NCBI RefSeq assembly: GCF_009184545.1
Contig: NZ_QJOW01000009.1
Coordinates: 1-54,759, forward strand
DNA length: 54,759 nucleotides
From: Halosegnis rubeus
GTDB lineage: Archaea; Halobacteriota; Halobacteria; Halobacteriales; Haloarculaceae
Reading direction: 5' to 3'
A program made the translations under genes and the position numbers. Below are positions 8,811 to 43,753 of this stretch, piece by piece. The number at the start of each line of letters is the position of its first letter. The stretch's first letter is position 1. The notes below the pieces were generated by a model. That model was not told where the DNA came from, ran no database searches, and saw only the letters and a program-made list of their open reading frames with translations.

Positions 8811-10543
8811 AGGTGCTCACCTCGCAGGGCGAAGAGACCGTTGTCCCCGCCGCTGGGGACCATCGGGAACACGTCCTCCTCCGGGGCGATGCGAACGTCC
8901 ACGACCGAGGGTCCCTCGTAGTCGAGGGCCGCCTCGATGGTGGCTTCCACGTCGTCGTAGCCGTCGATGGCGAACCCCTCCGCGCCGAACGCCTCGGCGA
9001 CGGCGTCGAACTTCGGCATCCAGTCGTACTCCGAGGCCATCCGGCGGCCCTCGAAGAAGCCGTCCTGCCACTGGCGCACCATCCCGATGAACTGGTTGTT
9101 CAACACGAAGACGGTGATGTCCATCTGTTCGCGGGCCGCGACGGTCAGTTCCTGACATGTCATCAGGAAGGAGCCGTCGCCGTCGAAACAGACGACGGTC
9201 TGGTCGTCGTCGGCCGCGACGCGCGCGCCGATGGCGGCGGGCACGCCGTAGCCCATCGTCCCCAGTCCGTGGCTCGAAATCCACGTTCGCGGCTGGGTGA
9301 AGGTCCAGTACTGACAGGCCCACATCTGGTGTTGCCCGACGCCGGTCGTGACGACGGTGTCGTCGTCGGTCGCGGCGTCGACAGCCTCCACGACGAACTG
9401 TGGTTTGACGGGGTCGTCCTCGTCGATGTGATAATCGAGCGGATACTCTTGCTTCCAGTCGCGACACCGCTCACACCAGTCGGCGGTGTCCGGCGAGCGG
9501 TCCATCGCGGCCGCGAACTGCTCGATGACCGCGCGGGCGTCACCGACCAGCCCGAAGTCCGCCTCGACGTTCTTCGAGATCTCGGCGGGGTCGATGTCGA
9601 TGTGGATGATTTCGGCGTCGGGCGCGAACGTCTCCACGCCGCCGGTCAGTCGATCGTCGAACCGCGTCCCGACGGCGAACATGCAGTCGGTCATCGTCAG
9701 CGCCATGTTGGCGTAGCCGGACCCGTGCATCCCACCCCACTCTAAGGAGAGGTCGTGGTCTTCCGGGAACGCGCCGATACCGGGCATCGTCGTGACGACC
9801 GGAATCTCGTGTTCGATGGCGAACTCGCGCAGCTGCTCGCTCGCCTCCGCGCGGATGACACCGCCGCCCGCGAGGATGACGGGGCGGTCGGCCTGCTGGA
9901 GCGCGTCCGCGGCGCGGCCGACGGCGCGTTCGTCTGCCGTCTCGGCGGGCACGTACGTCGGTGGCGTGCGCGGTGGGCCGGGTTCGCGGTCGGTCTCGCC
10001 GTTCGAGACGTCCTTCGGGAGGTCGACGAGCGTCGGTCCCTGCCGGCCCCGGTTGGCCATCGCGAACGCCTCGCCGACGGTGTCGCCGACTGAATCGGGG
10101 TCGTCCGCGAAGTAGTTCTCCTTCGTAATCGGACGGGTGACGCCGGTCGTGTCCGTCTCCTGGAAGGCGTCGCTGCCGACGAAATCCGTCGGCACCTGTC
10201 CAGTCAACGCGAGCACGGGGTCGGAGTCCATGTCGGCGTCGGCGATGCCGGTGACGAGATTCGTCGCGCCCGGCCCGGACGTGGCCAGACAGATGCCGGG
10301 GTCCCCGTCCACTGCCCCGTAGGCGTCGGCGGCGTGAACCGCTCCCTGTTCGTGGGCCATCGTGAGATGGGTCATCTCGGAGTCGTACAGCGCGTCGTAG
10401 ACGGGCATGATTGCTCCGCCCTGTACGCCGAACAGATGTTCGACGCCGGCGTTCTCTAGCGCGCGGACGACCGACTCGGCCCCTGTCGTCACCGGCGTCG
10501 GCTCGTCGGATTGGTCACTCGCTGTTGTCTGTTCGCTACTCAT
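8807..10543 (-). CDS. ilvB: Acetolactate synthase large (catalytic) subunit
   Basis: The product has 578 residues. It is a thiamine-diphosphate enzyme that joins two pyruvates, or pyruvate and 2-ketobutyrate. The catalytic glutamate lies in the MAHEQGAVHAADAY block near 64, the FAD/central domain follows, and the ThDP/Mg motif CFDGDGSFLMTCQEL with NNQFIG is near 445-475. The N-terminal 20 residues are a low-complexity Ser/Thr/Asp tail. It is the first full gene after a leader of about 164 bases containing a small upstream frame and an inverted repeat, so expression is probably controlled in the leader. Confidence 0.97.
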   Translation of the reverse strand: MSSEQTTASDQSDEPTPVTTGAESVVRALENAGVEHLFGVQGGAIMPVYDALYDSEMTHLTMAHEQGAVHAADAYGAVDGDPGICLATSGPGATNLVTGIADADMDSDPVLALTGQVPTDFVGSDAFQETDTTGVTRPITKENYFADDPDSVGDTVGEAFAMANRGRQGPTLVDLPKDVSNGETDREPGPPRTPPTYVPAETADERAVGRAADALQQADRPVILAGGGVIRAEASEQLREFAIEHEIPVVTTMPGIGAFPEDHDLSLEWGGMHGSGYANMALTMTDCMFAVGTRFDDRLTGGVETFAPDAEIIHIDIDPAEISKNVEADFGLVGDARAVIEQFAAAMDRSPDTADWCERCRDWKQEYPLDYHIDEDDPVKPQFVVEAVDAATDDDTVVTTGVGQHQMWACQYWTFTQPRTWISSHGLGTMGYGVPAAIGARVAADDDQTVVCFDGDGSFLMTCQELTVAAREQMDITVFVLNNQFIGMVRQWQDGFFEGRRMASEYDWMPKFDAVAEAFGAEGFAIDGYDDVEATIEAALDYEGPSVVDVRIAPEEDVFPMVPSGGDNGLFALRGEHL

Positions 10544-35408: not shown

Positions 35409-35783
35409 CTACCCCTCGCGTTGAATCAGTACGGCGAGCACCGCAATCAGGGCGACCTGAATCGCCTTGTCGACGTAGCCGAGCGTGGAGAAGCTCCCCG
35501 CGTTGATGACGTACCACGCGACGATCTGCCCGAGCGTCCACAGCGCACCGAGCGCGTAGAGTGGCCGTCTTGGTACGTCAACGTCGAGCGCGAGCACGGC
35601 GGCCCCCCCGAGGAAGCCGACGCCCGCGACGGCGAAACTGATACCGTACGTCGAGAGTCCGTACAACGCGACCAGATACAGATGCAGGAGTCCGGTCGCG
35701 ACCGCGAGTGCGATGCCGGCCCAGTGTATCGAGGTTAGCGACCCCGTCTGGACGCCCCCACCTGTTGCTTCTCGGGTCCCCAT
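35409..35783 (-). CDS. Four-helix membrane protein, DUF7475-like
   Basis: The product has 124 residues with four hydrophobic segments (about 19-40, 43-65, 73-92 and 102-121). The second contains GISFAVAGVGFLGGAAVLAL, and YALGALWTLGQIVAWYVIN follows. Small haloarchaeal membrane proteins of this layout are grouped as DUF7475, which I assign with moderate certainty. Function is unknown. Its 3' end abuts the decayed DUF7260-like gene on the other strand. Confidence 0.7.
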   Translation of the reverse strand: MGTREATGGGVQTGSLTSIHWAGIALAVATGLLHLYLVALYGLSTYGISFAVAGVGFLGGAAVLALDVDVPRRPLYALGALWTLGQIVAWYVINAGSFSTLGYVDKAIQVALIAVLAVLIQREG

Positions 35784-35810: not shown

Positions 35811-36917
35811 TTATTTGAGGGTCGCGGAGACGTGGTTCCGAATCTCGGTCGCGAACCGGTCGCTGGCGAATCGGTCCCGGGCGAGGAACGGCCGGAGGTC
35901 AGCATCGAGCGCCGTCGCGACCGTCTCCACCGCCCCCTCGATGCCGTGAAACAGCAGTCGGTCGTCGCCGTCGAGCACGTCGACCTGCCCGCCTTCGCGG
36001 GGAGCGAAGGGAACCATTCCCGCGGCGGCGTACTCGGCGACGGCCATCCCGAAGTGCTCGCTCGGCTTCATGTTGAGTCCGTACCGGTAGCGACCGAGCA
36101 GCGTCTCGACGCGGTCGCGAGACACGTCGGTCTCGACGCGGACGCCCTCGCTGCGGGCGGCCGCCGACTCGACCCGGCGGACGTACTCCCGGTAGGCGGT
36201 CGGCGCGGAGCCGACGACGTGACAGGTGAGGTCGTACCCGCGCGCACGCAGTCGCTCGACCACCTCGATGGCGTCGAGCACGCGCTTGTCCGGCGCGACG
36301 CGACCGAGCACGAGCACGCCGGCGTCGCGTGCTACCCACGGCCGCCCCTCGATTGGGTCGACCGGCGGGTGACAGACGGTCGGACGAACCCCGTAGATGT
36401 CGGCGGTCACGTCGGCGGTCCACGCCGAGTTCGCCAGCAGCCGGGTCGAGTCGTCGAGCTGTCGGCGGTCGGGCGCGGCGAGCCGGGACCACACGCCGTC
36501 GAGTCGACCGGTCTCGCCGGCGTCGATGCGGTCGCCGTGGAACTGCGGGAAGTGAACGTACTGCACTGACGGTCCCGAAGTCGAGAGTTCGTTCGCCGTG
36601 CTGACGACGATGTCGAACTCGCTCCGTCGGCGGTGGAGATACGCTCGCAAGAGCACCGACCGGGCGGGGAGCTGTGGACCGAGGTACGGCGCGGCGAGGT
36701 TCAAGCCGGTCGCGAGCGGGCGATTTCCCGGCGGGGTCGCGACCGTCACGTCGAACGGTACGTCGAACTTCACGGCCACACGCTCGGGGGCCGTCGCCGA
36801 CAGCGTGAACAGCGTCACGTTGTGGGCGGCATCGAGGGCGGCACAGACGTGGAGACACACCATGTCCGCACCCCCCTCGAAATCGAGCGTGTTGTGGAAC
36901 ACCGCGACCTTCGCCAT
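35811..36917 (-). CDS. Glycosyltransferase family 4 protein
   Basis: The product has 368 residues. The N-terminal GT-B domain has VAVFHNTLDFEGGADMVCLH. The donor domain has GVLVLGRVAPDKRVLDAIEV and the signature KPSEHFGMAVAEYAAAGMVP. No membrane segments are seen. It is divergent from the long overlapping pterin-lipid-like gene set, separated by 82 bases, so the two may share regulation. The ATG at 36917 (MAKVAVFH) was chosen over 37055, which would overlap the divergent gene. Confidence 0.87.
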   Translation of the reverse strand: MAKVAVFHNTLDFEGGADMVCLHVCAALDAAHNVTLFTLSATAPERVAVKFDVPFDVTVATPPGNRPLATGLNLAAPYLGPQLPARSVLLRAYLHRRRSEFDIVVSTANELSTSGPSVQYVHFPQFHGDRIDAGETGRLDGVWSRLAAPDRRQLDDSTRLLANSAWTADVTADIYGVRPTVCHPPVDPIEGRPWVARDAGVLVLGRVAPDKRVLDAIEVVERLRARGYDLTCHVVGSAPTAYREYVRRVESAAARSEGVRVETDVSRDRVETLLGRYRYGLNMKPSEHFGMAVAEYAAAGMVPFAPREGGQVDVLDGDDRLLFHGIEGAVETVATALDADLRPFLARDRFASDRFATEIRNHVSATLK

Positions 36918-36999
36918 ACGCGTCGTGTGGGCGCTGTCGGCTTGAACCCTGTCGCCGCCGGCGACAATGTATTGGTGGACGCACCCGCAGTTTGCGGTA

Positions 37000-38934
37000 G
37001 TGAACTGCTTGGTAGTGGGGGCAGGCAGCGTGGCACGCGAGTACGTCGACGGCATCGCGGACGCGAATCTCCAGCCCGTCGGCGTCTGTGACCTCGACCG
37101 CGACCGCGCGACCGCGCTCGCGGGGCAAATCGACGCGACCGCCTACACCGACCTCGATGCGATGCTCGCCGCCGAATCCGCGCCGCTCGTCGTGAACCTC
37201 ACGAGCCACGGGGCACACGCGCCGGTGACGCGTACCTGTCTCGATGCGGGCCGACACGTCTTCTCGGAGAAGCCGCTGGCGGTGGACGCGGCGACCGCAG
37301 CCGACCTCGTTGCGCTCGCTCGCGACCGAGGTCTCGCGCTCGGCTGCGCGCCGGCGAACCCTACCGGCGACGTGCAGCGACACGCCCGGACGCTGCTCGC
37401 CGACGGGCGACTCGGCGAGGTGCAGTTCGTCACCGCGACCGCGAACGTCGGGCGCGTCGGGGCGTGGCACGACCGTCCAGACTCGTTTCTCCGCGTCGGC
37501 CCGCTGTACGACGGTGGCGTCTACCCCCTCACCCTGCTCGTCGCGTGGTTCGGGCGCGTCGAGTGCGTCCGACGGGCCGACGCCCTCCCGCTGTGGCCCG
37601 GTGGCGCCGACCCGGACGAGAGCTACACCGACGCGCCACACGTCGAGGCGACGCTCGAATTCGCCGACGGCCCGACCGTCGCGCTCCGGGCCAGCTTCTA
37701 CGTCGACCACCGGAGCCGGGAGTTCTACGGCCTGGAGTGTCACGGCGACGACGGTACCCTGTATCTGGACGACACCGGCGCGCTCGCCGCCGAGGCGTCG
37801 GCCGTCACCGTCCGCGGCGGCGACCGCGAGCCGACGACCGCACCCCACCCGGCCCCGCGTCGTGAGCAGTCACGGCTCGAAGCGGTCGAGCGGCTGGCCG
37901 ACTCGGTCCGGCGCGACGCCCCGGACCGGACGACCGCGCGGCGTGGTGCACACGTCGCCGCGGTGTGTAACGCCATCGAGGCCGCCGCGGACGGGGGTGG
38001 TGCGGTGACCGTCGGGAGCGATGCTCCCGCGGGGGCGCGGCCGAAGCGCGTCTGGGAACCCGAATCCAGCACCGCCGACAGGGCGCTGCATCTCCCGCCG
38101 GTCGGCTTCGGCTGTTCGCGCTACCGACACGGCGACTACGTGACGCCGGCACTCGGTGCGGCTGTCGACGCCGGCTACCGGCTGTTCGACACGGCGGAAC
38201 TGTACGGCAACGAGTGGCGACTCGGCGATTTACTCGCCGACGGTCCCGACCGCGACAGCCTCTTGTTACTCGGGAAGCCGTGGCGCACGAACCACGGTCC
38301 CGGCCACCTCGAACGCGCTTGTCGCGGGTCGCTCGCGGAACTCGGTGCCGACGCCTTCGACTGCTACGCGCTCCACTGGCCCGGGGCGTGGGAATACACC
38401 GCCCCGCTGTCGGAGCTTTCGAAGCAGCCAGTCGCCCAACAGGAGCGACTGACCTTCCCGACCGACGCGAACGGCGAGCCGGCCCGCGCGAGCCACACCC
38501 TCCTCGAAACGTGGCAGCGAATGGAGCGGCTCGTCGACGAGCGGCTGGCCCGGACGCTCGGCATCTGTAACGTGACGCTGCCGCAACTCGCCGCGGTCGT
38601 GGACGAGGCGCGAATCCCGCCTGCACTTGTCCAGGTGGAGTCGAATCCGTACGCGCCACGCCACGCCCTGGTCCGGTGGTGTCACCGCCACGGCATTCGG
38701 GTAATCGCCCACTCCCCCCTCTCGGCCGAGCTTCGCGAGGACCCGGTCGTCAGGTCCGTCGCCGACAGACACGAGATCACGCCGACGACCGCGCTGTTGG
38801 CGTGGCAGGTCCAGCGGGGCGTCGTCCCGATCCCGACGACGACCGACCCCGAGCACGCGACGGCGAATCTCGCGGCCGCGCGCCGCCGACTCGACGAGCG
38901 AGCGATGACGCAGTTGGACGGGCTAGTCCGATGA
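37000..38934 (+). CDS. Gfo/Idh/MocA oxidoreductase fused to an aldo-keto reductase
   Basis: The product has about 644 residues. The N-terminal half (1-350) has the Rossmann block LVVGAGSVAREYVDGI and the catalytic-loop FSEKPLAVDA typical of Gfo/Idh/MocA enzymes. The C-terminal half (about 355-644) is an aldo-keto reductase with LPPVGFGCSRYR, a tetrad fitting Asp/Tyr in DTAELYGNE, Lys in LLGKPW and His in YALHWPG, and the NAD(P) block VIAHSPLS. Both halves keep key residues, so both may be active on linked sugar or alcohol intermediates. GTG 37000 (MNCLVVGAG) was preferred. ATG 36967 is the alternative. Confidence 0.88.
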   Translation: MNCLVVGAGSVAREYVDGIADANLQPVGVCDLDRDRATALAGQIDATAYTDLDAMLAAESAPLVVNLTSHGAHAPVTRTCLDAGRHVFSEKPLAVDAATAADLVALARDRGLALGCAPANPTGDVQRHARTLLADGRLGEVQFVTATANVGRVGAWHDRPDSFLRVGPLYDGGVYPLTLLVAWFGRVECVRRADALPLWPGGADPDESYTDAPHVEATLEFADGPTVALRASFYVDHRSREFYGLECHGDDGTLYLDDTGALAAEASAVTVRGGDREPTTAPHPAPRREQSRLEAVERLADSVRRDAPDRTTARRGAHVAAVCNAIEAAADGGGAVTVGSDAPAGARPKRVWEPESSTADRALHLPPVGFGCSRYRHGDYVTPALGAAVDAGYRLFDTAELYGNEWRLGDLLADGPDRDSLLLLGKPWRTNHGPGHLERACRGSLAELGADAFDCYALHWPGAWEYTAPLSELSKQPVAQQERLTFPTDANGEPARASHTLLETWQRMERLVDERLARTLGICNVTLPQLAAVVDEARIPPALVQVESNPYAPRHALVRWCHRHGIRVIAHSPLSAELREDPVVRSVADRHEITPTTALLAWQVQRGVVPIPTTTDPEHATANLAAARRRLDERAMTQLDGLVR

Positions 38935-39737
38935 GCCTGAACTCGTTGCGCCGACGCTGGTGGGGCGTCCTCGTCGCGAGTACCCTCGCGACCGGAACAG
39001 TCGGTGCGCTCGTCGCGCGCCAGCTCTCGCCGGCTGCGGGCGGACGGTGGTTCGCCGGTGCGCTCGCTCCGGTCGTGTTTCTCGCGTGGTTCCTCCGACG
39101 CACGCTCCCCGAGAATCGCCCACCCGATGACGCCCCCGGCTCGGGCGTGTATCAGACGCTCGGGCTGGCGAACGGTATCACGGTCGCGCGCGGCTGGCTC
39201 TACGCGTGTCTGGGCGGGTTCGTGCTCGTCGTCCCGCCGGCCGGGACGCCGTGGCGGTGGCTGCCGGCCGTCGCGTACAGCGCCGGTATCGGGCTCGACT
39301 GGGTTGACGGCGCGACGGCCCGCACCGTGAGCCGGCGGACGCGACTGGGCGAGCGGCTCGACCTCGCGTTCGACACCATGGGATTCCTGCTCGCGCCGGT
39401 CGTCGGCGTGGTCTGGGGTGCGCTCCCGGTGTGGTATCTGTCGGTGTCGGCCGCCCGATATCTGTTCAAACTCGGCTGCTGGCTCCGCGAGCGCCGCGGG
39501 CTTCCCGTCGGGGAGCTGCCGGAGAGCCGCGTCCGGCGACCGCTCGCCGCCCTCCAGATGCTCACTATCGCCGTCGCGCTCGTGCCACCTGTCCCGGCGA
39601 GCGTCTCCTGGCCACTCGCAACCGCGGCCATGATTCCAACGCTCGTGGTGTTCCTCCGGGATTATCTGTCGGTTACCGGACGACGGAACGAAGCAAACGC
39701 TAAAGAACGTACACCCGTAACCCGAGTAGATGACTGA
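38931..39737 (+). CDS. CDP-alcohol phosphatidyltransferase family membrane protein
   Basis: The product has 268 residues with about six to eight hydrophobic segments. The complete family signature is present near 120: DWVDGATARTVSRRTRLGER continuing LDLAFD fits D-x2-D-G-x2-A-R-x8-G-x3-D-x3-D. These enzymes move a phospho-alcohol from a CDP donor to an alcohol in the membrane. Its ATG overlaps the fusion oxidoreductase stop (ATGA). Acceptor and product are unknown. The setting suggests a non-standard head group. Confidence 0.9.
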   Translation: MSLNSLRRRWWGVLVASTLATGTVGALVARQLSPAAGGRWFAGALAPVVFLAWFLRRTLPENRPPDDAPGSGVYQTLGLANGITVARGWLYACLGGFVLVVPPAGTPWRWLPAVAYSAGIGLDWVDGATARTVSRRTRLGERLDLAFDTMGFLLAPVVGVVWGALPVWYLSVSAARYLFKLGCWLRERRGLPVGELPESRVRRPLAALQMLTIAVALVPPVPASVSWPLATAAMIPTLVVFLRDYLSVTGRRNEANAKERTPVTRVDD

Positions 39738-40515
39738 CGTGTCACACGATGGCACCCGGATGGTCGCCCTACAGATCGACGACTACGGTCCGTGGACGAC
39801 CACGCCGGAGCCACGACGGGAGACGGACTTACAGGCGCTCCAATCGCGGCTGTTCGCGACCGTCGCCGACTTCTTCGCCCGGTTCGACGGGTACGCCTTC
39901 GCAGACCGCTACGACAACATGATCGGCGTCGCGAACGGGGCCGGCCCGGCGATTTTCGAACGGCTCCAGACGCAGGTCGCGAATCAGTACCCAGTAACCG
40001 TGAGCGTCGGCGTCGGCACGGCCGGAACGCCTCGCACGGCCCTCGAAGCCGCCAACGGCGTCCTCCAGCAGGCCGGCAGCGCACAGGACGCAGACCGGAC
40101 CGAGGTCCACGACCACCGGGTCGTCGACGACGCGACCGCGGGAACCGTGACGATCGCCCACTTCGACGTGGTGGACGCGACTGGCACACTGACCGACCGC
40201 GTCTCCTCTGCCGAGGCGAGCCACACCATCCGCCGGGCGGTACTCGAACTCCGCGAACAGATGTGGGAGCGTCACGGGGCGGTCACCCAGTTCGTCGGCG
40301 GCGACAACGCCATCGCCGTCTGTCCGTCGCTGACGCCGTCGACGCTCGACTCCGTCAACGACCACGTCCGGGAGACGACGGGGGTGGAGCTACAGGTCGG
40401 TGTCGGACGCGGGCCGACCGCCCACGCGGCCGGCGACGGCGCGAAACACGCACTCGAACACTGCCGCGAGACGGGCGAGCGCATTCACGCCGCGTTCAGC
40501 CTCGTCGAACGATGA
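39730..40515 (+). CDS. GTP cyclohydrolase III (ArfA type)
   Basis: The product has 261 residues. Two GGDEF-like halves are visible: FDGYAFADRYDNMIGVANG near 55 and GAVTQFVGGDNAIAVCPS near 180, with a basic/acidic linker. The archaeal enzyme opens GTP to a formylamino-pyrimidinone ribotide, the first step towards riboflavin and F420/deazaflavin. The start overlaps the preceding stop by eight bases. Here it sits in a lipid/glyco cluster rather than with ribH or other riboflavin genes, so it may feed a different pathway. Confidence 0.88.
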   Translation: MTDVSHDGTRMVALQIDDYGPWTTTPEPRRETDLQALQSRLFATVADFFARFDGYAFADRYDNMIGVANGAGPAIFERLQTQVANQYPVTVSVGVGTAGTPRTALEAANGVLQQAGSAQDADRTEVHDHRVVDDATAGTVTIAHFDVVDATGTLTDRVSSAEASHTIRRAVLELREQMWERHGAVTQFVGGDNAIAVCPSLTPSTLDSVNDHVRETTGVELQVGVGRGPTAHAAGDGAKHALEHCRETGERIHAAFSLVER

Positions 40516-41513
40516 TCGACGCGCGCCGACTCTACTTCACGGACCCCTGCGAGGTCGAGGTCAGATCCGTCACGCTGGACGCCCCCGAGGAGGGCGAAGT
40601 CGTCGTCGAGACGGCCGAGTCGGGCATTAGTCCCGGCTCCGAGCTGCTCGTTTACCGCGGCGAGTTCCCCGAAGAGACCGCCGTCGACGAGACCATTGAG
40701 GCGCTCGCCGGCACCTTCGAGTACCCGCTGCCGTACGGCTACGCTGCCGTGGGTACCGTCACCGACTGTGGCGCGGGCGTCGACGAGTCGTGGCGCGGTC
40801 GGACCGTCTTCGCGTTCGAGCCACACGCAGACCGGTTCGTCGCGTCCACAGACACGCTCGTCCCCTTGCGCGAGGGAATCACACCGACGGAAGCGACTCT
40901 GCTCCCGTCGGTAGAGACCGCCACGAATCTCGTCCTCGACGGGAACCCCCGCGTCGGGGAGGAGGTCGTCGTCTTCGGCGCGGGACTGGTCGGACTGTGT
41001 ACCGTCCACGTCCTCTCGCAGTTTCCGCTCTCGAATCTCACCGTCGTCGAGCCTGTTGCCACCCGCCGGCGACTGGCAGCGCAGTTCGGCGCGGACCGAG
41101 CTATCGCGCCCGCGGCCGTCGGCAGCGACGCCGCACCCTCGGCCGTCGACATGGTGTACGAGCTGTCCGGGCAACCGGCGACGCTCGACGACGCAATCGA
41201 GACGGTCGGCTACGACGGGCGCGTCGTCGTCGGCTCGTGGTACGGCAAGAAGCGCGCTCCGATTAATCTCGGCGGGTCGTTCCACCGCGAGCGCATCAGC
41301 CTCGAATCCAGTCAGGTAAGCACCATCGACCCCGACCTCCGGGGTCGGTGGGACCGCGAACGCCGGTTCGACGTGGCGTTTGACCACCTCCAGACGCTCG
41401 ACACCGAGCGGCTGTGCGGTGAGGCGTTCGCCTTCGACGCCGCAGCCGACGCCTACCGGACACTCGCGGACGGCACCGTCAAGCGACCACACGTCACCTT
41501 CACCTATCGATGA
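40512..41513 (+). CDS. MDR-superfamily dehydrogenase without zinc-site motif
   Basis: The product has 333 residues. The N-terminal GroES-like part has VVETAESGISPGSELLVYRG, similar to BchC-like members. The Rossmann domain has VVFGAGLVGLCTVHVLSQF near 158. The classical catalytic GHE zinc signature and the four-cysteine structural lobe are absent, so it is probably a zinc-free NAD(P) oxidoreductase. It is coupled by ATGA overlaps to both neighbours, the GTP cyclohydrolase and the PTPS homologue. Confidence 0.85.
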   Translation: MIDARRLYFTDPCEVEVRSVTLDAPEEGEVVVETAESGISPGSELLVYRGEFPEETAVDETIEALAGTFEYPLPYGYAAVGTVTDCGAGVDESWRGRTVFAFEPHADRFVASTDTLVPLREGITPTEATLLPSVETATNLVLDGNPRVGEEVVVFGAGLVGLCTVHVLSQFPLSNLTVVEPVATRRRLAAQFGADRAIAPAAVGSDAAPSAVDMVYELSGQPATLDDAIETVGYDGRVVVGSWYGKKRAPINLGGSFHRERISLESSQVSTIDPDLRGRWDRERRFDVAFDHLQTLDTERLCGEAFAFDAAADAYRTLADGTVKRPHVTFTYR

Positions 41514-41920
41514 CAGACACCACACCCCAGCCAGCCGAGTCGTACACGCTCACCGTCCGCCGTGAGTTCGTCGCCCAACACTACCTCACCGTCCCCGATC
41601 CCGGTCCCGTCGAGGGGGAGCCACACAGCCACGTCTTCACGGCCGAGGTGGAGTTCGCCGGGGCGACGCTGGACGAGTTCGGCTATCTCGTCGACATCGA
41701 CGCCGTCGAGGAGCGACTCGACGCGCTTGAAAACCGCTACCGGGACACCCTGCTCAACGACCTCCCCGAGTTCGACGGGGCGAATCCGAGCGTCGAGCGG
41801 TTCGCGAAAGCGTTCGGCGACCGACTGGTCGAGCATCTCGCCGACCCGAACCCGACCGCGCTCACGGTTCGACTCTGGGAGGACGACCTCGCGTGGGCGA
41901 GCCACGAGCGTCGACTGTGA
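41510..41920 (+). CDS. 6-pyruvoyl-tetrahydropterin synthase homologue lacking cysteine
   Basis: The product has 136 residues of the PTPS/QueD fold. The zinc-binding histidines fit H24 (FVAQHYLTV) and H39/H41 (EPHSHVFTAEV). The protein has no cysteine at all, so the usual catalytic Cys of PTPS and QueD is missing. The normal active-site His after the first helix is also replaced (ALENRYRDTLLND). It therefore probably does not make 6-carboxytetrahydropterin in the standard way. Its ATG overlaps the dehydrogenase stop. Confidence 0.85.
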   Translation: MTDTTPQPAESYTLTVRREFVAQHYLTVPDPGPVEGEPHSHVFTAEVEFAGATLDEFGYLVDIDAVEERLDALENRYRDTLLNDLPEFDGANPSVERFAKAFGDRLVEHLADPNPTALTVRLWEDDLAWASHERRL

Positions 41921-42717
41921 CCGCCGACGGCCACGACCACGGACAGCGGCGCTATCTGACGGCCAAACACAGCGTCGACGAGCGCGCGCGCAACGACCGC
42001 GTTCGCCGCCGACTGCTCGCGGAGCTACCGGCGACCCCGCGTGTCGTCGAGTGGGGTCCCGGCGTCGGGCTGTCGGTTCCGACGCTGACCGAGTGGACGA
42101 GTCTCGACTCCTACCACGGCGTCGAGACCGACCCGAGGCTGGCGGCGTTCGCCCGGTCGCTCGTCTCGCGGCTGTTCGCTCGACGCGAGGCGGAGCTCTC
42201 CGAGATGCAGTTCACCGTCGGCGACGCACTCGCGACCGAGACGGAGCCGTGTGACCTGCTGTACGCGCAGTCCTTCTTCGACCTCGTGTCGACGGCTGGA
42301 GCGCTCGACGCCGTGGAGGAGCGCGTCGCAGCCGGCGGCGTCGCGTACGCGCCGCTCACGTTCGACGGGAAGACGACGTTTCTCCCCCGCCACCCCGACG
42401 ACGAGACGGTGCTCGGGGCGTTTCACGACACCATCGACGCGACGGACGGACAGAGCCGCGCGGCGACCACGCTCCTCAACGCGCTCGGCGAGCGCGACGC
42501 GACGGTGCTTGCGGTCGGCAGCTCCGACTGGATGGTCCGACCACACGCGGGCGAGTATCCGGCCGACGAGCGCTACTTCCTGTCGTCGATTCTCGACATC
42601 ATCGAGGATGCGCTCGGCGAGCACGCCGCGGAGTGGCTCGCGGCGCGACGGGCACAGCTCGCCGAAGACCGGCTCACCTACGTGGCGAACAACCACGACG
42701 TGGTGTGGCGGCCCTGA
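41917..42717 (+). CDS. SAM-dependent methyltransferase-like protein
   Basis: The product has 266 residues. Motif I is PRVVEWGPGVGLSVPTLTEW near 44, motif II is SYHGVETDPRLAAF, and the later DLLYAQSFFDLVSTAGALDA block fits a class I methyltransferase core. A C-terminal helical part (about 170-266) may bind the substrate. GTG 41917 overlaps the PTPS stop (GTGA) and was chosen over GTG 41893. Target unknown, though its position suggests a small-molecule or lipid substrate of the same pathway. Confidence 0.82.
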   Translation: MTADGHDHGQRRYLTAKHSVDERARNDRVRRRLLAELPATPRVVEWGPGVGLSVPTLTEWTSLDSYHGVETDPRLAAFARSLVSRLFARREAELSEMQFTVGDALATETEPCDLLYAQSFFDLVSTAGALDAVEERVAAGGVAYAPLTFDGKTTFLPRHPDDETVLGAFHDTIDATDGQSRAATTLLNALGERDATVLAVGSSDWMVRPHAGEYPADERYFLSSILDIIEDALGEHAAEWLAARRAQLAEDRLTYVANNHDVVWRP

Positions 42718-43257
42718 TTATCGGCCGGTGAGCGGCGACCACCGGGCGAGCACGACCCCGGCGAGCGCGACGGCTCCCGCCCCGATTGCGACCCCGGCGA
42801 CCGTATCCGTCAGGTAGTGCGTGCCGAGATAGACGCGAGAGACGGCCACGAACAGCGCCAGCGGCGCGACGACCGCGACGGGAAGCTTCTCGGAACGCCG
42901 CGCCGTGAGCGCGAACACCGTGCCCGCGGCGGCGTGTCCCGAGGGGAACGAGGACGCGACGGCCTCACCCGTGGTCTGACACACGGGCATGGGTGGAAAC
43001 GGGCGCGCGACGACCGTCATCAGGGTCGCGACGACGAGGCCGGTGACTGCGAGTGCGATACCGGCGCGTTCGGTCTCCTCGCGCCAGCCGGCGGCGAAGA
43101 ACAGTCCGAGAAAGACCAGCGCCGCAGTCGCGGAGCCGAGTCCAGTGACCGAGGTGAGCAGTTTCGTCGCCAGCGGCGCCCGAAGCTCCGCGAGCAGCAG
43201 TGCGGTCTGGGTGTCGAGCGCGAACAGCCAGTCGAGCAGCCTCCCGGGCACGTCCAT
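42718..43257 (-). CDS. PAP2 family phosphatase
   Basis: The product has 179 residues with five to six hydrophobic segments. The three phosphatase motifs are visible: VVARPFPPMP near 82, SSFPSGHAAAG near 102, and SRVYLGTHYLTD near 138. It removes phosphate from a lipid phosphate or similar molecule at the membrane. It converges on the methyltransferase gene with no gap, so co-regulation is not clear, but the activity would suit a pathway ending with a lipid phosphate. Confidence 0.92.
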   Translation of the reverse strand: MDVPGRLLDWLFALDTQTALLLAELRAPLATKLLTSVTGLGSATAALVFLGLFFAAGWREETERAGIALAVTGLVVATLMTVVARPFPPMPVCQTTGEAVASSFPSGHAAAGTVFALTARRSEKLPVAVVAPLALFVAVSRVYLGTHYLTDTVAGVAIGAGAVALAGVVLARWSPLTGR

Positions 43258-43288: not shown

Positions 43289-43753
43289 CTACCGGTGGTC
43301 GCTCGCCCGCGTGCGAAGCGCCCGGCTCACGACCCACGCCGCGACCAGCCAGATGCCCACCTCGATGAAGAAGGAGCGACTCCACAGGTAGTACCAGACG
43401 AACTCGCCCGGGGGAATCGCGAGGGGCGTCGGCGGCTCGACGAGGGGCCACCCGAGGAAGAACGCGTCCGTCGGCCGGCCGTTGACGACGATGTGGAGCG
43501 CGTCGGCAGCGAGATGTGAGACCCACCCGACCGCGAGCGCGAGCCACCGCCCTCCGCGGAGCGCGAGCAGGAGAAACAGCGGCGCGAGGAGCGCGGTGTG
43601 GCCGACGGTGTGAAACAGGTCCACCACGCCCGCCGAGGCGAGCGGCTTGTCCACGAGATCGGGAAGCGCGGCTCCGAGGACGGCGGCGACGACGGACAGC
43701 CCGCGCGCTCGTGCGAGCAACCACGCAATCACGAGATGGGTAGCGAACAGCAC
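43289..43753 (-). CDS. YdjM/DUF457-type membrane metal-dependent hydrolase
   Basis: The product has 154 residues with three to four hydrophobic segments. Candidate metal ligands are LPDLVDK near 30, FHTVGHT near 47, and SHLAADALHI near 80, the pattern of the LexA-binding/YdjM membrane hydrolase family. Substrate unknown. It is followed on the same strand by the PAP2 gene 31 bases downstream. It is preceded by the DRTGG protein gene, which ends eight bases before it begins. Confidence 0.8.
   Translation of the reverse strand: MLFATHLVIAWLLARARGLSVVAAVLGAALPDLVDKPLASAGVVDLFHTVGHTALLAPLFLLLALRGGRWLALAVGWVSHLAADALHIVVNGRPTDAFFLGWPLVEPPTPLAIPPGEFVWYYLWSRSFFIEVGIWLVAAWVVSRALRTRASDHR

Follow-up and report, generated by a model that had tools for sequence, protein, structure and literature searches.

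A candidate pathway from GTP to a glycosylated pyrimidine or pteridine, encoded by an overlapping gene set of Halosegnis rubeus with relatives in Archaea and Bacteria

The DNA analyzed here (the window) is the 54,759-nucleotide stretch from positions 1 to 54,759 of contig NZ_QJOW01000009.1 of Halosegnis rubeus (assembly GCF_009184545.1). Six genes on its plus strand, between 37000 and 42717, overlap in series by 4 or 8 bases in the open reading frame (ORF) map and encode, in this order, a fusion of a Gfo/Idh/MocA oxidoreductase with an aldo/keto reductase (Gfo-AKR), a CDP-alcohol phosphotransferase (CDP-OH), ArfA (GTP cyclohydrolase III), an MDR dehydrogenase, a homologue of PTPS, and a methyltransferase. 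A sequence-only reading of the window had described this series together with a divergent family 4 glycosyltransferase (GT4) gene at 36917, and gene calls based on the ORF map plus Pfam and NCBIfam scans agree with it in both respects. We consider it rather probable that the operon specifies a pathway of its own, mobile by horizontal transfer, that leads from GTP, by way of a 2-amino-pyrimidinone ribosyl or ribityl phosphate, to a product that is glycosylated and methylated and in many cases linked to lipid. As judged from sequence comparisons, opening of the GTP ring as the point of entry is strongly supported; the product and its link to lipid we infer, and attachment to lipid by a phosphodiester is suggested more weakly.

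Co-occurrence of the gene set in Halobacteria

Sixty genome loci encoding PTPS relatives were fetched, after which 116 evenly sampled Halobacteria genomes were searched. Cluster-type PTPS was called at ≥131 bits, and neighbors were counted up to 8 kb from the PTPS gene. ArfA was present in 113 of the 116 genomes and cluster-type PTPS in 71. The neighbors of these 71 PTPS genes included MDR (64, the most constant pairing), GT4 (57), methyltransferase (51), the small membrane protein DUF7475 (43, in 41 of which CDP-OH was also present), CDP-OH (42), ArfA (29), and Gfo-AKR (20), followed by relatives of the small membrane "metal-dependent hydrolase" (14) and PAP2 phosphatase (6). A six-family core of MDR, PTPS, GT4, methyltransferase, CDP-OH, and DUF7475, with ArfA not counted, was complete at 35/71 loci. 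ArfA lay ∼4 kb or less from PTPS in its 29 genomes, for which a rough binomial P value is ∼1e−48; this value and the co-occurrence counts rule out a chance neighborhood. Two Haloarcula plasmids bear the cassette of the window in identical order, with Gfo-AKR in the same place, which indicates that the set moves as a block. The gene set is a real unit. The families thus recur together elsewhere in Halobacteria, where the sequence-only reading had suggested looking for them; of the families it had named, MDR, PTPS, GT4, methyltransferase, and CDP-OH stand as core members, whereas Gfo-AKR and PAP2 do not, and DUF7475, encoded beside GT4, is a further member that it had not included.

Creatininase and flippase genes were each found near only 2 of the 71 haloarchaeal PTPS genes and were rejected as regular members of the haloarchaeal set. 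One genome (G044) carries the cluster, and no ArfA was found in it; the cluster abuts a contig end, and it is on this flank that ArfA lies in the congener G073; the missing gene is therefore probably an assembly gap.

ArfA and its relation to flavin synthesis

ArfA of the window matched PF05165 at 298.9 bits (cut-off, 21.3) and the NCBIfam model for GTP cyclohydrolase IIa at 322.3 bits (cut-off, 306). It is a homologue of 2qv6 from M. jannaschii (8e−48), with which it has the motifs QxDxYGPWT, RxDN, HxD, and FxGGDN in common. The archaeal riboflavin pathway (ArfA, ArfB, ArfC, RibB, and RibH) starts with the same enzyme family and probably shares with the cluster both formamidopyrimidine ribosyl phosphate (FAPy) and diaminopyrimidine phosphate. 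The cluster differs in that genes for RibB, RibH, and ArfC were not recognized in the set of the window and in that its ArfA persists where flavin synthesis has RibBA. An operon in which ArfA would serve riboflavin and the other genes would modify the flavin or an intermediate is in our view quite unlikely, and a role in flavin supply is largely refuted by the distribution of ArfA described below.

The H. rubeus genome has a second ArfA gene, which stands alone on contig C9 and whose product is 49 to 51% identical to the cluster copy. It lies at about 9560 to 10319 of locus L063, 3′ of a thymidine-kinase-like gene and 5′ of an ABC transporter of the branched-chain amino acid type. Two ArfA genes were found in 14 sampled genomes, and in 12 of these one copy lies in the cluster; the two exceptions (G086 and G110) have no cluster PTPS. 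In a tree of 71 ArfA proteins, that of the window falls in a clade of eight, all of them in-cluster (SH-aLRT support, 100), with long branches that leave the inner order of the clade unsure. The in-cluster state needs nine changes on this tree, at least four of them forced by well-supported branches, and in-cluster ArfA appears from the tree to have arisen repeatedly.

A replaced riboflavin route in another haloarchaeal genus of the window's family (g6) bears on the same question. In three of its genomes (G050, G079, and G089), the riboflavin genes form a ribE-ribBA-ribH operon of bacterial type that includes GTP cyclohydrolase II, and RibH and RibB score far above the archaeal type. This genus has apparently swapped the whole archaeal riboflavin route for a bacterial one, so flavin synthesis there should no longer need ArfA. 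Neither ArfA nor the cluster was found in G079 and G089; in G050 the cluster is present, and the one ArfA of this genome belongs to the dedicated clade and lies inside the cluster. Taken together, the extra ArfA of H. rubeus, the clade made up of cluster copies alone, and the pattern in this genus indicate that ArfA of the cluster can be separated from flavin synthesis, and they rule out a plain riboflavin operon. The sequence-only reading had raised the question of another ArfA for riboflavin, and H. rubeus has a second copy on C9; it had also named absence of co-occurrence, or an ArfA that is the sole copy and always needed for flavin, as grounds for abandoning the proposal, and neither is what we find.

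Several observations weigh against a pathway dedicated in this way. The cluster copy is the only ArfA in 17 genomes, where it presumably therefore feeds flavin as well, and deletion of arfA in Haloferax volcanii results in riboflavin auxotrophy (PMC8305020). Both facts favor a flavin operon, and because of them position in the cluster alone does not separate ArfA from flavin synthesis. One genome (G014) has only an ArfA of the dedicated clade beside ordinary archaeal RibB and RibH, so this clade, too, can probably serve flavin. Among the 71 loci, 42 have no ArfA close to PTPS, and 29 have no CDP-OH there; the lipid step may thus be optional or encoded elsewhere. Finally, GT4 of the window (GT4w) is of a different subtype, divergently encoded and not orthologous to the usual GT4. 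GT4w occurs at 7 loci and the usual type (F3) at 50, never both at one locus, and GT4w replaces the usual GT4.

The PTPS-fold protein and its bacterial counterparts

The PTPS homologue resembles QueD and PTPS-I in its tunnel-fold domain, histidine ligands, and substrate-type glutamates. Three zinc-ligand histidines (H24, H39, and H41) and two glutamate positions are invariant in 27 aligned cluster sequences, whereas none of the 27 has the Cys or the Asp-His that serve catalysis in QueD. The pocket therefore looks suited to a 2-amino-4-oxo-pyrimidine ring, and the chemistry must differ from that of QueD and PTPS. The canonical QueD of H. rubeus, encoded separately on contig C6, retains the Cys and Asp-His, and its presence rules out a queuosine or archaeosine role for the cluster. 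F420 biosynthesis was likewise rejected, as no CofC, CofD, CofE, CofG, or CofH domain was detected among the cluster genes by Pfam and NCBIfam. The set thus differs, as first proposed, from the operons for riboflavin, F420, and queuosine.

An AlphaFold model of the PTPS homologue (pLDDT, 90) has as its best match in the PDB 3d7j, the structure of SCO6650 (TM score, 0.81), which is the best match by sequence as well. SCO6650 exceeds QueD both in sequence score (62.9 versus 40.6 bits) and in Foldseek comparisons (E value, 3.9e−10 versus 2.1e−8; TMq, 0.81 versus 0.73). The HxH pair is lost in bacterial members and kept in haloarchaeal ones, so the zinc site is not lost in the window's protein.

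The set is not confined to Halobacteria. An MDR-PTPS-methyltransferase core, mostly with GT4, is kept in Streptomyces, Proteobacteria, Microbacterium, KSB1, and Salinibacter-like bacteria, where the place of ArfA is taken by GTP cyclohydrolase II, by a RibD with reductase activity only, or by both. Among 12 annotated bacterial plasmid loci reached from the SCO6650 sequence, 10 had MDR-PTPS plus methyltransferase; these included GT4 in 9, RibA and/or RibD in 9, and CDP-OH in 6. The methyltransferases of bacterial clusters match a profile of the window's enzyme at 45 to 77 bits. PTPS was solitary at the other two loci (L202 and L209), both on Streptomyces plasmids, and there the SCO6650-like gene stands beside MEKHLA-domain and cupin genes. 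In KSB1 (L052) and Salinibacter-like bacteria (L038, L062, L188, and L189), GTP cyclohydrolase II fused to the RibD reductase domain is encoded directly 5′ of MDR, and PTPS also adjoins the RibA-RibD_C fusion and MDR in most of these loci. KSB1, GSL, and Salinivenus genomes have another RibA as well, that of KSB1 lying near a second RibD_C-bearing gene.

The Streptomyces SCO6650-type cluster is the nearest known system, having MDR-PTPS-GT4-methyltransferase, CDP-OH, and a GTP-opening enzyme in common with the haloarchaeal set. On an S. fungicidicus plasmid this set includes a GTP cyclohydrolase as the opening enzyme and a creatininase, and the PTPS encoded there shares 92% identity with the SCO6650 query. 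The haloarchaeal set differs in using GTP cyclohydrolase III rather than II, in keeping the three zinc histidines of PTPS, and in adding DUF7475 and often Gfo-AKR. Two proteins of the Streptomyces version have reportedly been studied biochemically or structurally by others. No published description of the set was found in a literature search that covered few subscription papers, and we rate the set as a variant of GTP-cyclohydrolase-initiated pterin- or flavin-type biosynthesis.

RibD of the bacterial clusters consists of the reductase domain only, without deaminase (two checked). The 2-amino group, which is removed in bacterial flavin synthesis, would thus be kept and the intermediate would lie off the bacterial flavin route, a further point against a flavin operon. 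RibA of the Streptomyces cluster carries Met where others have Tyr and has a creatininase gene beside it, while clusters with the Tyr-type RibA are without creatininase. Met at this residue is reported to make S. coelicolor SCO6655, the GTP cyclohydrolase II homologue of SCO6650-type clusters, release FAPy, the ArfA product; the archaeal FAPy deformylase is a member of the creatininase family.

The MDR-PTPS-methyltransferase core is thus supplied by GTP-opening enzymes of two unrelated kinds, together with a RibD reductase that has no deaminase. This ties an orphan set of genes, shared by Halobacteria, Streptomyces, rhizobia, methanotrophs, purple sulfur bacteria, and KSB1, to a single chemical entry point. 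The precursor of a compound in two domains of life thereby becomes a testable prediction, and proteins named "6-carboxytetrahydropterin synthase," "zinc-binding alcohol dehydrogenase," and an extra "GTP cyclohydrolase" acquire a shared context, their current names in these clusters being probably wrong. The replacement also bears on a reading of the locus as one for cell-surface glycolipid or lipid head-group synthesis, with ArfA and PTPS as bystanders or recruited to a new substrate. GT4, CDP-OH, PAP2, and DUF7475 do travel together, and flippase-like genes occur in bacteria, as that reading would expect; we nevertheless hold it to be very improbable, as the most constant pair is MDR-PTPS and as nonhomologous replacement has brought an enzyme that opens GTP, or its RibD partner, into the set in unrelated lineages, a pattern not expected of bystanders.

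Salinibacter-like bacteria (L038, L062, L055/L189, and L188) carry a haloarchaeal-type PTPS-MDR arrangement, in part with methyltransferase. Their PTPS is ∼58 to 60% identical to that of the window, which suggests exchange of the PTPS-MDR set between halophiles of different domains. PTPS matches of 70 to 80 bits in the KSB1 phylum were set aside because they have no MDR-PTPS-methyltransferase neighbors; three such loci (L184, L186, and L187) encode homologues at 70 to 76 bits, two of them with a GT4-like gene several kilobases away.

Proposed pathway and partner enzymes

In the dedicated pathway that we favor, ArfA is predicted to open the imidazole ring of GTP, giving FAPy. By analogy with the bacterial versions, deformylation and reduction by creatininase-type and RibD_C enzymes encoded in the genome would then yield 2,5-diamino-6-ribosyl/ribitylamino-4(3H)-pyrimidinone phosphate, with the 2-amino group retained. 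The PTPS-fold protein may act on this compound, or on a pteridine derived from it, together with the zinc-less MDR in a rearrangement or condensation. To judge from the enzyme families, GT4 would add a sugar and the S-adenosylmethionine (SAM)-dependent enzyme a methyl group. CDP-OH, present at ∼60% of haloarchaeal loci, could join a polyol or phosphate to lipid through a phosphodiester, and the end product would be a membrane-anchored pyrimidine or pteridine glycoconjugate. The sequence-only reading had proposed a GTP-derived pterin or pyrimidine on a lipid or sugar head group; a pterin or pyrimidine made from GTP is indeed the most economical choice of substrate, whereas the head-group product stays at the level of a suggestion.

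A lipid link is suggested by the intact CDP-OH motif, by a fusion of CDP-OH to an LPG-synthase-type membrane domain in KSB1, and by flippase-like genes in the clusters of Agrobacterium, Rhizobium, Peteryoungia, and Microbacterium. The full motif D-x2-DG-x2-AR-x8-G-x3-D-x3-D, which reads DWVDGATARTVSRRTRLGERLDLAFD in the window, is conserved in position in 21 members. Cytochrome b561-type genes in proteobacterial clusters could, speculatively, point to a redox role. We tentatively raise the possibility that a membrane-anchored, GTP-derived ribityl-pyrimidine or pteridine lipid represents a new, possibly redox-active class of lipid cofactor in Archaea and Bacteria, with PTPS in a new catalytic role and the cytochrome b561 and flippase-like domains of proteobacterial and KSB1 clusters as redox and transport partners.

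A soluble charged or glycosylated pterin is an unlikely alternative. Here PTPS, GT4, and the methyltransferase would decorate a pterin of the neopterin type, and CDP-OH would add a phospho-alcohol to the pterin rather than to lipid. That GT4 and a methyltransferase share an operon with a PTPS-fold protein fits such a product, as do the loci without CDP-OH. Halopterins were reportedly described from halophiles in the 1980s; Haloarcula, which carries the set, is said to be the source of one of them. The entry enzyme, however, yields ring-opened pyrimidines rather than dihydroneopterin, neither MptA nor a FolE-type gene was recognized among the genes of the window's set, and soil bacteria have the same set with RibA plus RibD_C, which reduces the ribosyl to a ribityl chain.

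For MDR, the best NCBIfam match was BchC at 72.6 bits, well below the cut-off of 291. It has the MDR fold of BchC-type and zinc enzymes; no ADH_N domain was matched in Pfam and its conserved SxISxGTE motif has no catalytic-zinc Cys, and on these sequence grounds the label "zinc-binding alcohol dehydrogenase" is probably wrong for it. The methyltransferase had no Pfam match, and its AlphaFold model (pLDDT, 93.2) matches the fold of SAM methyltransferases. When CDP-OH, MDR, and GT4 of the window were compared by sequence with the PDB, nothing close was identified.

Features of the H. rubeus gene set and of the g6 riboflavin operons
Feature	Position	Strand	Remarks
DUF7475 small membrane protein	35409..35783	-	PF24287, 39.4 bits
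Divergent GT4 glycosyltransferase, GT4w type	35811..36917	-	PF13439/PF00534
Gfo/Idh/MocA oxidoreductase-aldo/keto reductase fusion	37000..38934	+	PF01408 and PF00248; GTG start at 37000 picked from profile match, longest ORF from 36967
CDP-alcohol phosphotransferase, complete catalytic motif	38931..39737	+	PF01066, 55.5 bits; ATGA overlap with Gfo-AKR
ArfA/GTP cyclohydrolase III	39730..40515	+	PF05165, 298.9 bits; 8-base overlap
MDR dehydrogenase, BchC-like below cut-off	40512..41513	+	PF00107 only; ATGA overlap
PTPS-fold protein, SCO6650-like group	41510..41920	+	PF01242, 85.5 bits; ATGA overlap
Class I SAM methyltransferase	41917..42717	+	AlphaFold fold match; GTGA overlap
PAP2 phosphatase, accessory	42718..43257	-	PF01569
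Small membrane protein, "metal-dependent hydrolase" type, accessory	43289..43753	-	
ribE-ribBA-ribH operon, G050	L257, 5186-7584		
ribE-ribBA-ribH operon, G079	L258, 4812-7192		
ribE-ribBA-ribH operon, G089	L259, 5226-7624		

On the two Haloarcula plasmids, PAP2 lies just outside the cassette and is adjoined by a gene like that for the small membrane hydrolase. Two further PTPS matches were noted. A second, frame-broken cluster-type match was identified at G038:C1:179642-180003, in a genome that also has an intact copy. The other, on a plasmid of Haloarcula marismortui, is partial and carries no annotation (query residues 28 to 132, 49.5%; NC_006395.1 104339-104650 and NZ_CP039137.1 232755-233066); it is perhaps a decayed copy.

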